Shown: piece after piece, positions 38,927-44,525 of the stretch | Layout of the letters: every line of letters begins with the position of its first letter | Position numbering within the stretch: the stretch's first letter is position 1 | Origin: Methanomassiliicoccus sp. | GTDB lineage: Archaea > Thermoplasmatota > Thermoplasmata > Methanomassiliicoccales > Methanomassiliicoccaceae | Assembly: GCA_012719175.1 (NCBI GenBank) | Contig: JAAYAX010000013.1 | Span: 1-64,000, forward strand | Direction of reading: 5' to 3' | DNA: 64,000 nucleotides | Position numbers and translations under genes: made by a program | Notes under the pieces: generated by a model | What the model saw: only the letters and a program-made list of their open reading frames with translations | What the model was told of the DNA's origin: nothing | The model's database searches: none

Positions 38927-39042
38927 GCCCCTCCATATCAACAGACCGTATATTATTTGATTGATTGTGGGCACCGACTGCCGTAGATTGGCCACCCTGG
39001 GGGATTACTGTCTCAACAAAATCTTTGGTAGCTACCGGAGAG

Positions 39043-39051
39043 ATAAAATAT
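39043..39051 (+). promoter_or_regulatory. TATA box of the riboflavin operon
   Basis: ataaaatat lies 33-41 bases before the ribB start GTG 39084. It supports that start over the longer open frame beginning at 38961. The leader would be about 12 bases, with an aaaggtgat ribosome site. Confidence 0.45.
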
Positions 39052-39083
39052 GGCGCCCCCTATCGGACGAAAAAGGTGATGAT

Positions 39084-39784
39084 GTGGATAATTTGAGGGA
39101 GGCCTTCAACGCGCTGCGCTCCGGTAAGTTCGTGCTGATATTCGATTCGGACAGCAGGGAGGCGGAGACTGACATGATGATCGCCTCCGAACATGTGACC
39201 TATGAGAGCATCCGCACCCTCCGGAAGGAGGCGGGCGGTCTGATCTGCACCACTGTCCCTGCAGAGGTTTGGAAGAAGCTGGACCTCCCCTTCCTGGCAG
39301 AGCTGTTCGCGGAGTCCTATTCCAAGCACCCCGTGCTTAAGGTGCTGGCCCCGAACGACCTGCCGTACGACACCAAATCGGCGTTCTCCCTGACCATTAA
39401 CCACCGGAGGACCTTCACGGGGATACCGGACGCGGACCGTGCCCTTACCATCATGGAGTTCTCGAAGTTGGGAAGCGGTCTGAACGGTCTCGATCCTGAT
39501 CTTGCGCGGGAGGAGTTCGGTAAGAACTTCCGCGCTCCCGGTCATGTGTTCCTACTCAACTCCCAGCAGGGAATGCTCAACGACAGGAGAGGGCACACTG
39601 AGCTTTCCTCCGCCCTTCTCAAGATGGGCGGGATGTTCCCCTCGGCCACCATCTGTGAGATGATGGGCGATGATGGCAAGGCTCTTACCAAGGACAAGGC
39701 TCAAGATTATGCCCGACGATACGGCCTGAACTACCTCGAGGGTGCGGAGATCATCGAGGCATGGCAGGGCAGCAAGTGGTCACA

Positions 39785-39788
<4 letters not shown>
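39084..39788 (+). CDS. ribB: 3,4-Dihydroxy-2-butanone-4-phosphate synthase
   Basis: The 234-residue enzyme makes the four-carbon unit of riboflavin from ribulose-5-phosphate. Motifs are LRSGKFVLIFDSDSREAETD (metal and substrate), EAGGLICTTV, TINHRRTFTGIPDADRALTI and GHTELSSALLKMGGMFP. The order matches archaeal RibB. I chose GTG 39084 because it has an aaaggtgat site and a TATA box; the open frame starting at 38961 would put residues before any promoter. The stop overlaps ribL as ATGA. Confidence 0.92.
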
Positions 39789-40698
<910 letters not shown>

Positions 40699-40702
40699 TG
40701 AC

Positions 40703-41113
40703 ATGAAGAAGTACAATATTGGGATAGTGGTATCTGAGTTCAATTTTGACATCACCTCGATGATGTTGGAGCGGGCGAAGGCGCACGCCGCCTTCCTGGA
40801 TGTGAACGTGAGCAGGGTCATCTCCGTCCCTGGGGTTTACGACATGCCCCTGGCCATAAAGAAGTTGCTGGAGGACCAGGGCATCGATGGAGTGGTCACC
40901 CTAGGTTGCGTGATCGAAGGAGAGACCGATCATGACCAGGTGGTCATCCAGCATGCCGCCCGCAAGATCATCGACCTCAGCCTCCAGTATGAGAAGCCGG
41001 TGTCCCTGGGCATCAGCGGACCGGGCATGACCCGCCTGCAGGCGGAAGAGAGGATCGAGAAAGGGCGTGATGCGCTGGAAGCTTGCGTCAAGCTCCTCAA
41101 GAACCTTGAGTGA
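40703..41113 (+). CDS. ribH: 6,7-Dimethyl-8-ribityllumazine synthase
   Basis: The 136-residue enzyme forms lumazine from the ribB product and the pyrimidine intermediate. Motifs are GIVVSEFNFDITSMMLERA, VPGVYDMPLAIKKLL, and GCVIEGETDHDQVV with the His that acts in catalysis. Length is right for archaeal RibH, which forms capsids or pentamers. It ends the four-gene operon ribB-ribL-ribC-ribH. Upstream enzymes, from GTP to the pyrimidine, are not in this window. Confidence 0.96.
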   Translation: MKKYNIGIVVSEFNFDITSMMLERAKAHAAFLDVNVSRVISVPGVYDMPLAIKKLLEDQGIDGVVTLGCVIEGETDHDQVVIQHAARKIIDLSLQYEKPVSLGISGPGMTRLQAEERIEKGRDALEACVKLLKNLE

Positions 41114-42602: not shown

Positions 42603-44525
42603 GTGGCCCTGGTCCGATTAGGCAAGATACCTCTGAGATGGTGCGATCCGTGCAACGTTCCTGTCCTTGAGAGCAAGCAGTGCGGTCGCTGCGGTGGTGC
42701 GACCAGGCAGATGGAGATAACACCTCCGGGCGATGCCCGTCCTGCATCTCCATGGGATGTGAGGCTCGTGAGGGAGGTCGTTGACAGGCAGTTCGGGCCG
42801 GGCTGCGGGGCGGCGGTACTGCCGGAAGGACACTTCGCGCTGATGAACAAGGCCCCGGCGCTCGACCGCATGGATGAGGTCATGGTGGACGGAACCGTGA
42901 CCGGAACCCTGCGCTACGACCTGGGAAAGGGTTGGACGTTCCTGGCCCGGATGCCCGCGGCCAAGGCCATGCAGGCCATCGCATCCCGCGCGGTGGTCAC
43001 GGCCGATGACGGCGCCATCAAGCCCATCCTCGATGGCTCGAACCTCCTGGCACCAGGGGTGGTCTCCAGAAGCGAGGGGATCTCCGTAGGGGATGAGGTG
43101 CTCGTTGTCGATCGCCAGGGAAGGGCCTTCGCCTCGGGGATCGCACGCATGTGCTCAGAGGAAATGAAAATGGGGGCCAAGGGCATGGCGGTGAAGGTGC
43201 GGTGGATGGAGGCCCCCGAGGATGCACCTCCATCAAAGGCCGCTTCGGGATGGACGGAGGTGCTGGAGGCCAACCACCCGGAGATGGACCGCAAGATCAC
43301 AGAGGCCGTAAAGTTCATGCACCGCATAATGAACGAGAACAATGGCCTCCCCGCCGTGGTCTCGTTCTCGGGAGGCAAGGACTCACTGGCGACACTGCTG
43401 CTGGGACTGAGGACGGGGGTCAAGCTTCCCATTCTATACCTCGACACCGGCCTGGAGTTCCCGGAGACCTTGCAGCATGTCCATGACGTGGCCCGACGCC
43501 ACGACCTCAGGCTGATCCTGGAGGAGGCTCCCCGGGAGGCTTTTGAGGAAGGGTTCAGAGTGTTCGGTCCGCCCGGACGGGACTACCGGTGGTGCTGCAA
43601 GACCAATAAGTTGGGACCTACGGTCCGGGCCATTGCCAAGAACTTTCCCGAAGGGGTCCTCTCCTTCATAGGTCAGAGGCGCTACGAGTCCGAGTCCCGC
43701 GCTGCCAAGCCCAGAGTGTGGCAGAACCCATGGACGCCGGGGCAGATCGGAGCCTCTCCCATACAGAACTGGACGGCGCTGCATGTATGGCTCCTCATCA
43801 TCGGAGATGGGGAGCCATACAACCCTTGGTACGATCGAGGTCTGGACCGCATCGGATGCATAATGTGCCCCGCCTCAGACCTGGCCGAGCTTAAAGTGGT
43901 GGAGGACGGCTGCGCGAACTACAGAGAATGGTCGGAAAAGCTCCACGGCCATGCTTCCAGCAGAGGCCTCCCTACCTCCTGGGTGGAACTGGGAATGTGG
44001 AGGTGGAAGAAGGTGCCTCCTTCAATAATCCAGGAGGTGGACAGGGCGGGCTTCTCAGTGAGAGCTTCGAGAGACGCAGAGGAGGGGTCGGCCGAGAACC
44101 TCAAGCTGTTCCTCCAGGGGGGAGTGTCCCCATGTACCATGGGGTACTCCATCGAAGGCGCCTTCGATCGCCCTCTGCACCTGGACCGGGTGGCTAACGT
44201 CCTCAATATGCTTGGCGAGGTGACCGTGAACGAGGAGGAGGGCTGGGTGATGGTGGACAATGTCACCATCTTCGATGCCGGGGCCCTCATCGCCAAGGAT
44301 GCGGACGCTGAAAAGTTAAAAGAAAAAGTGGAAGGGGTGCGTCGAACGGTGGTCAAGGCCGAGGAGTGCGTCGGTTGCGGCGTCTGCACCGGAAGATGCA
44401 TCGAGGGTGCACTAAGCTTGGTGCTAGGCCGTGTTCATGTCAATGTTGCATCGTGCATCCACTGTGGACGTTGCATGGAACCGTGCCCAGCCATCACGTT
44501 CGGTGACAGCGCTTTTGATTTCTGA
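42603..44525 (+). CDS. PAPS-reductase-type PP-loop protein with zinc ribbon, PUA and 2x[4Fe-4S] domains
   Basis: The 640-residue protein has four parts. Residues 14-32 are a zinc ribbon, CDPCN and CGRCGG. Residues of about 130-200 look like a PUA domain (ILDGSNLLAPGVVSRSEGIS), which binds RNA in modifying enzymes. Residues of about 245-480 are the PP-loop domain with VVSFSGGKDSLATLLLGL and CCKTNKLGP, GCIMCPAS. The end is a two-cluster ferredoxin, CVGCGVCTGRC and CIHCGRCMEPC. This set of domains occurs in methanogens. PUA plus PP-loop suggests RNA sulfuration more than sulfate reduction. GTG 42603 starts the frame; a TATA-like gtataatgg lies near 42571-42579. Confidence 0.85.
   Translation: MALVRLGKIPLRWCDPCNVPVLESKQCGRCGGATRQMEITPPGDARPASPWDVRLVREVVDRQFGPGCGAAVLPEGHFALMNKAPALDRMDEVMVDGTVTGTLRYDLGKGWTFLARMPAAKAMQAIASRAVVTADDGAIKPILDGSNLLAPGVVSRSEGISVGDEVLVVDRQGRAFASGIARMCSEEMKMGAKGMAVKVRWMEAPEDAPPSKAASGWTEVLEANHPEMDRKITEAVKFMHRIMNENNGLPAVVSFSGGKDSLATLLLGLRTGVKLPILYLDTGLEFPETLQHVHDVARRHDLRLILEEAPREAFEEGFRVFGPPGRDYRWCCKTNKLGPTVRAIAKNFPEGVLSFIGQRRYESESRAAKPRVWQNPWTPGQIGASPIQNWTALHVWLLIIGDGEPYNPWYDRGLDRIGCIMCPASDLAELKVVEDGCANYREWSEKLHGHASSRGLPTSWVELGMWRWKKVPPSIIQEVDRAGFSVRASRDAEEGSAENLKLFLQGGVSPCTMGYSIEGAFDRPLHLDRVANVLNMLGEVTVNEEEGWVMVDNVTIFDAGALIAKDADAEKLKEKVEGVRRTVVKAEECVGCGVCTGRCIEGALSLVLGRVHVNVASCIHCGRCMEPCPAITFGDSAFDF

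Follow-up and report, generated by a model that had tools for sequence, protein, structure and literature searches.

The type-4, phosphorothioation bacteriophage exclusion (BREX) systems contain BrxP, described in a 2026 survey as a 3'-phosphoadenosine 5'-phosphosulfate (PAPS) reductase domain followed by an alpha+beta Mog1p/PsbP-like domain and a ferredoxin-type cysteine cluster, an arrangement shared by a subset of SspD proteins (PMC12839542). DndC, which receives activated sulfur from a desulfurase, carries a cluster on Cys146/273/280/283 (PMC12193691). In iron-sulfur (Fe-S) tRNA thiolases the catalytic cluster sits on three cysteines, with one iron left for sulfur (PMC5372739). Archaeal homologues of the PAPS-reductase type have been called putative adenosine 5'-phosphosulfate (APS)/PAPS reductases, after two M. 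jannaschii proteins, in a paper on anaerobic methanotrophic (ANME) archaea (PMC6286981). Here, we examine one such gene in a 64,000-nucleotide stretch of a Methanomassiliicoccus sp. genome (assembly GCA_012719175.1, contig JAAYAX010000013.1, positions 1 to 64,000; hereafter the window). It belongs to PRK13795, a curated NCBIfam family titled just "hypothetical protein" with a function-less entry, and we argue that its product is probably, if by no means surely, an anaerobic, ferredoxin-fed RNA sulfurtransferase whose target is probably tRNA.

From N to C terminus, the protein comprises a four-cysteine ribbon, a C2-like domain, a PUA domain, a PAPS-reductase-type PP-loop domain, a linker domain and a two-cluster ferredoxin. 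This is the architecture of PRK13795 (NF010368, with NF010366 for its paralogue), and the match is full-length: over residues 4–634, NF010368 (PRK13795.1-3) reaches 605.8 bits, above its cut-off of 588, and the sister model NF010367 is exceeded as well (553.5 against 456). Because both NCBIfam cut-offs are passed, the frame is not a chance one. Homologues of its genus line up with it from its first residues onward, and the closest named loci, from Methanomassiliicoccus and Methanomassiliicoccales metagenome-assembled genomes, are 77–89% identical. The family is already known. A sequence-only reading of the window had proposed a PAPS-reductase-like domain joined to PUA and ferredoxin domains, and the Pfam and NCBIfam matches bear this architecture out.

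We aligned 72 relatives: 26 of the main type (type A) from the host order Methanomassiliicoccales, 26 other copies from the phylum Thermoplasmatota and 20 of a paralogous type B. They were chosen for spread among the fetched loci, leaving aside same-locus second copies, some near relatives and the truncated locus L012; type B is known from these 20 fetched second copies rather than from all second copies. Cysteines conserved across all three groups are restricted to putative metal sites in the ribbon, the PAPS-reductase domain and the ferredoxin, and no conserved catalytic cysteine beyond them was found in this alignment. Within the ribbon, C14, C17 and C27 occur in 72/72 relatives and C30 in all type-A and other copies and 95% of type B, while C511, further downstream, is present in 96% of type A of the order, 42% of the others and 100% of type B. 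All eight ferredoxin cysteines are invariant. As C331, C332, C419 and C422 of the PP-loop domain are conserved besides these eight, the chain is likely to hold three [4Fe-4S] sites, not two; the two ferredoxin sites of the sequence-only reading stand, and a third, probable one joins them.

The head of the protein is of an RNA-binding kind. Family profile positions 46–201 (close to the window protein's numbering) align to residues 430–579 of the archaeosine tRNA-guanine transglycosylase (TGT) 1iq8 with an E value of 8e-10, in a sequence group that also takes in 1it7, 1it8 and 1j2b, and positions 47–205 align to the PUA protein PH0734 (3d79, E 3e-17). For the window protein, the Pfam match to TGT_C2 falls short of significance (E 0.028); among 17 aligned family members the domain was detected in 7, at best with 3.5e-7. 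The C2–PUA end of archaeosine transglycosylase holds tRNA, and 1j2b is its tRNA complex. Both archaeosine TGT and ArcS share this end with the window protein, in which Pfam and NCBIfam scans found none of their catalytic domains. The C2-like and PUA domains would thereby supply the RNA-binding part expected of an Fe-S tRNA thiolase, and because the head parallels the domains of archaeosine transglycosylase, tRNA is suggested as the target.

The PP-loop domain separates the family from assimilatory APS/PAPS reductase (CysH), which has the same fold (Z about 18) and carries CC...CxxC ligands too. As CysH controls we took four of five fetched plasmid records, annotated as phosphoadenylyl-sulfate reductase; two adjoin a gene for sulfate adenylyltransferase or sulfite reductase, a third has a sat gene two genes off and the fourth sits amid siroheme genes. 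The fifth (Crassaminicella, annotated "family protein") has SGGKD without ECG[LIF]H and was left out of the count. An SGGKDS loop is found in 72/72 relatives, giving the family the intact PP-loop expected of an Fe-S tRNA thiolase, and in 0/4 controls, all four of which have a degenerate PP-loop; the ES that follows GxR in 72/72 of the family is QS or QN in the controls. Conversely, ECG[LIF]H is present in 4/4 controls, once as ECGFH, and even the wider pattern ECG[LIMFVY]H occurs in 0/72 relatives. The cysteine of this motif is the C-terminal catalytic cysteine of APS/PAPS reductase. A tree built from the PAPS-reductase domain sets CysH apart (support 100) and has the family as one side of a moderately supported branch (86); several rows of this tree are long and their placement uncertain.

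Nor is a supply of APS or PAPS apparent in the searched genomes of the order. ATP sulfurylase (PF01747) was found in 0/76 genomes of the order, the own genome included, and APS kinase in 0/61 relatives' genomes searched there. A sulfite-reductase-type domain occurs in 13/61, with none in the own genome or in the other four of its genus that were searched. In the own genome no third PAPS-reductase-type match, of CysD or CysH type, appeared at E 1e-3 (the CysD type was checked in this genome only). M. thermolithotrophicus is described as the sole methanogen with proven growth on sulfate to date, for which it uses an unrelated PAPS reductase (PMC10322725), and the substrate source or role of archaeal genes like this one has already been questioned (PMC6286981, PMC10322725). 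A PAPS-reductase protein of Methanococcus voltae, which may or may not belong to this family, is reported as 3.1-fold less abundant on FeS2 (PMC9431491). With the PP-loop intact, the nucleophile motif absent and both PF01747 ATP sulfurylase and APS kinase missing from the searched genomes of the order, there is good support for the earlier suggestion that the enzyme does not serve sulfate assimilation, a role that we regard as unlikely.

Phosphorothioation proteins resemble the window protein more closely. Its best PADLOC match is BrxP (1e-46; 4e-46 for the type B paralogue of the same genome), followed weakly by SspD and DndC (DndC 5.9e-8). With BrxP and the SspD subset it shares the SGGKDS PP-loop, linker and two-cluster ferredoxin in the same order; it differs in its RNA-binding-type head, as domain scans of BrxP found no PUA head, and in lacking (by Pfam) the DUF4007 that full BrxP carries. 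The best BrxP stretch covers positions 101–318 of the 779-position profile, short of a full-length BrxP. A tblastn search of plasmids returned a Treponema frame covering residues 221–625 of the window protein, a Methanosphaera gene that PADLOC calls full BrxP and a Methanobacterium gene, and such BrxP-like plasmid genes adjoin DUF4007 or are fused to it. The Treponema saccharophilum frame (plasmid pTS1, locus L044, 3659–5290, plus strand) encodes 543 residues next to a DUF4007 gene and has no gene entry in the incomplete PLSDB table. DndC has the PP-loop and [4Fe-4S] cluster of the same superfamily, on ligands other than the CC...CxxC seen here. TtuA, NcsA and ThiI also unite a PP-loop ATP domain with Fe-S; they belong to another PP-loop subfamily, whereas the window protein has four cluster cysteines and a built-in ferredoxin, and ThiI is described as using THUMP for RNA, not PUA (PMC9957541).

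The whole-protein model is confident for residues ~7–120 and 213–460 alone (mean pLDDT, the predicted local distance difference test, 64.9), which leaves sequence as the sole basis for the PUA and C-terminal parts; an N-terminal model from five close sequences averaged 41.5 and was left unused. When the confident part was compared by VIA-align re-ranking of Foldseek's 1000 best chains, FAD synthase came top (Z 20.8), then the APS reductase 2goy (Z 18.4) and also CysD, with TtuA (Z 15.7) and NcsA (Z 13.6) lower and GMP, NAD and lysidine synthetases matching too. No archaeosine TGT chain was in the best 50 of these 1000. Literature searches, which left most subscription journals outside, found nothing that combines a PUA domain with a phosphosulfate reductase and nothing on PRK13795, MJ0066, arCOG00073 or arCOG00072, and the terms "PAPS reductase", "PUA domain", archaea and ferredoxin together led to the BREX survey alone (PMC12839542).

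Among 284 genomes of the phylum that are at least 90% complete, the family was present at E 1e-60 in 135 (above the curated cut-off in 99), and the gene occurs in 76/76 genomes of the host order, including those of 1.2–1.3 Mb. A haem-copper oxidase was found in 119 of the 284, and no genome had both. By taxonomic family, 24 of 44 have the gene, 14 the oxidase and none both (Fisher 3e-7, uncorrected for deeper kinship). This exclusion fits an oxygen-sensitive, ferredoxin-fed enzyme, and equally any strictly anaerobic function. The tree of the 72 relatives follows taxonomic groups.

Most genomes of the order hold more than one copy (two or more matches in 72/76). The 20 fetched second copies, 17 from the order and 3 from taxonomic family f24, form one clade (support 100), type B. 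The own genome contains a full-length type B paralogue of 627 residues (G000:C5:127584-129434; L002 1486–3369, plus strand), to which NF010366 gives 698, short of that model's cut-off of 745. Its PUA domain is degenerate (17.7 bits, where 24.8 is the cut-off), and the PP-loop domain changes Q358 to N, W377 to F and S385 to N are found in 20/20 sampled type B copies. Judged by these sequences, types A and B probably differ in substrate. One further family copy (G172:C45:31495-33399) has an in-frame TAG, which may be an assembly error or mark a decayed gene; pyrrolysine decoding occurs in the order Methanomassiliicoccales.

From the domains, motifs, conservation and distribution described above, we infer a metal content, RNA substrate, sulfur product, sequence of chemical steps and electron route for the enzyme. 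The head, made up of ribbon, C2-like and PUA domains, would take hold of RNA much as the C2–PUA end of archaeosine transglycosylase does of tRNA, and the PP-loop domain would spend ATP on adenylating the target atom. Sulfur would come from sulfide or from a desulfurase persulfide, and its placement may be aided by the [4Fe-4S] site of C331/C332/C419/C422. The C-terminal ferredoxin would supply electrons, either for persulfide reduction or for the upkeep of that site. An electron-fed RNA-thiolating enzyme, as the sequence-only reading had suggested, is the best reading, resting on domain homology, kinship with BrxP, SspD and DndC, and confinement to oxidase-less lineages.

Several points weigh against this reading, some of them in favour of an APS/PAPS reductase of sulfate assimilation, with ferredoxin in thioredoxin's stead and the PUA domain incidental or regulatory. 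Homologues from M. jannaschii count in the literature as characterised APS and PAPS reductases, from which the archaeal family takes its name (PMC6286981, PMC10322725); the activity, cited at second hand from Lee 2011 and the Cho 2013 thesis, speaks against the thiolation part of the earlier proposal. Judging by its genome, M. infernus, where such genes occur, ought to be capable of sulfate assimilation, and the authors who say so see these genes as arguing for a PAPS-reduction route while asking for biochemistry (PMC10322725). The cluster ligands are the APS-type CC...CxxC of the CysH controls, the fold lies near 2goy, and the four invariant cysteines, if all of them bind iron, would leave no obviously free iron site such as the three-cysteine thiolases are described as having (PMC5372739). 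ATP sulfurylase is present in 32 of 135 family-positive genomes, all of them outside the host order. ECG[LIF]H is also absent from 7/7 BrxP-like and 80/80 viral PAPS-reductase-like frames; because these lack it too, its loss marks off CysH rather than this family alone. The viral frames were obtained by an alignment query with patterns that included SGGKD and RWCC, a protein query having returned none, and since these motifs were selection patterns, their presence in the viral and part of the BrxP-like frames is no evidence for them. Set against all this are the reversed motif pattern, the order's want of ATP sulfurylase and APS kinase, and the unrelated PAPS reductase of the proven sulfate-grown methanogen, and we hold a reductase to be unlikely.

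FAD synthase as the top fold match means that the PP-loop is by itself no proof of sulfur chemistry, and an ATP-driven RNA modification without sulfur (adenylation, amidation or another ligation, as by other PP-loop enzymes) would account equally for the RNA-binding-type head; GMP, NAD and lysidine synthetases match as well. In published accounts, though, the nearest families are sulfur systems (BrxP and SspD, PMC12839542; DndC, PMC12193691), and three conserved probable Fe-S sites per chain suggest redox or sulfur work, making a sulfur-free role quite unlikely. Sulfur might instead pass to a protein or small molecule, in Fe-S assembly or in cysteine or homocysteine formation, with the PUA domain docking at the ribosome or tRNA. 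One locus has a class-V aminotransferase and a NifU_N gene head-to-head with the family gene, and some archaeal homologues are reported with a C-terminal cysteine desulfurase domain (PMC6286981); this gene pair is found in 1/23 loci outside the order, however, and SepCysS in 0/61 genomes, so that we rate such a transfer as decidedly unlikely. Finally, the BrxP match and the DUF4007 partners of BrxP-like plasmid genes could speak for a domesticated DNA phosphorothioation or phage-defence protein. That origin seems extremely unlikely for a gene found throughout the order, with a tree that follows taxonomic groups, a head of the RNA-binding kind and 0/10 neighbouring window proteins matching PADLOC at 1e-5, which leaves no BREX or defence context. 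Scattered neighbourhood links to RNA or sulfur are all that the loci offer an RNA sulfurtransferase, which nonetheless remains our preferred reading.

Table. Coordinates of the gene and of the features of its product in the window.
Feature	Coordinates	Strand	Basis
Whole coding sequence, PRK13795-family protein (type A)	42603..44525	+	single open frame, 640 aa, GTG start
Four-Cys ribbon C14-x2-C17...C27-x2-C30, probably zinc-binding	42642..42692	+	Cys conservation
C2-like domain, residues ~46-120, kin to the patch-forming C2 of tRNA-guanine transglycosylase	42738..42962	+	TGT_C2, profile alignments
PUA domain, residues 132-200	42996..43202	+	PF01472, 8.6e-20; RNA binding by homology
PAPS-reductase-type PP-loop domain, residues 251-424	43353..43874	+	PF01507, 2.6e-42
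Intact ATP PP-loop S256-GGKD-S261	43368..43385	+	SGGKDS motif
Probable third [4Fe-4S] site C331-C332...C419-x2-C422	43593..43868	+	four Cys invariant, 72/72
Linker domain, residues ~465-585, at the place of BrxP's Mog1p/PsbP-like domain	43995..44357	+	analogy with PMC12839542; low model confidence
Ferredoxin domain, two CxxCxxCxxxC sites C589/592/595/599/618/621/624/628	44349..44492	+	PF13237 (Fer4_10), residues 583-629, 2.7e-6

Around the gene, Pfam identifies serine hydroxymethyltransferase, phosphoglucose isomerase-type, riboflavin, aminotransferase, FtsZ and methionyl-tRNA synthetase genes among others, and no tRNA gene (ARAGORN) or Rfam match at the gathering threshold was found in window positions 1–64000. 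Across 18 type-A loci, an aminotransferase gene recurs in 16, methionyl-tRNA synthetase in 14, FtsZ in 13 and riboflavin genes in 8–11. This recurrence is general synteny, and no recurrent operon partner pointing to sulfur or RNA modification was found in loci of the host order. The riboflavin run at 38961–41113 of the window (dihydroxybutanone phosphate synthase, a cytidylyltransferase-like protein and two adjoining lumazine synthase matches, PF00885, 6e-17 and 1e-39) shows partly conserved synteny with the family gene.

Outside the order, neighbours give no more than hints. A Trm1-type tRNA methyltransferase lies beside the family gene in 5/23 loci, convergent in each, and an NTPase_1-type gene in 6/23, one example of each being confirmed by Pfam; the Trm1-type cases are too few to weigh. 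Loci with these neighbours (L063, L086, L094, L095, L105) come from several taxonomic families, and in L063 a DUF763 gene flanks the family gene on its other side. The head-to-head pair of aminotransferase and NifU_N genes, in L089, is separated from the family gene by 108 bp. In L092 (4506–5657, plus strand) and L099 (4513–5673, plus strand), from two taxonomic families, a convergent radical-SAM protein of ~385 residues ends at most 2 bases from the family gene.

Sulfur supply was considered at the level of genomes. A persulfide source in the host is likely because class-V aminotransferases, the superfamily of cysteine desulfurases, occur in 21/21 genomes searched. SepCysS, tried as a partner that would link sulfur donation to Cys-tRNA formation, was rejected at 0/61 relatives with positive controls in M. 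jannaschii and M. acetivorans. Replacement of ThiI by the family is likewise unsupported, as PF02568 occurs in 244/284 genomes. Among the matches listed, PF02568 frames of the order are mostly ~200–290 residues, some longer, and those of taxonomic families f21 and f32 mostly ~370–400; PRK13795 co-occurs with both short and long frames. The sole ThiI-family match of the own genome at 1e-10 (L186, 3685–4335, minus strand) consists of a PP-loop domain by itself, 216 residues long; it has a CxxC plus one more cysteine and leaves no room for THUMP, and short frames of this sort are frequent in the order.

The annotation as APS/PAPS reductase is given to these genes even in archaeal genomes that show no sign of sulfate activation, and if the enzyme is an RNA sulfurtransferase, this widespread annotation would be wrong. 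Methanogens and other anaerobic archaea would then own a so-far-unassigned RNA sulfur enzyme, present in 76/76 searched genomes of the order. A bolder version, very improbable in our estimate, makes the family an RNA-directed counterpart of the DNA phosphorothioation engine, sharing descent with BrxP and SspD: one or both of paralogues A and B would sulfurate the RNA backbone or make an enzyme-orphan thionucleoside in anaerobic archaea, with B, whose PUA domain is degenerate, acting on another RNA or site. If the sulfurtransferase reading holds, RNA modification would be linked to the defence based on DNA phosphorothioation.

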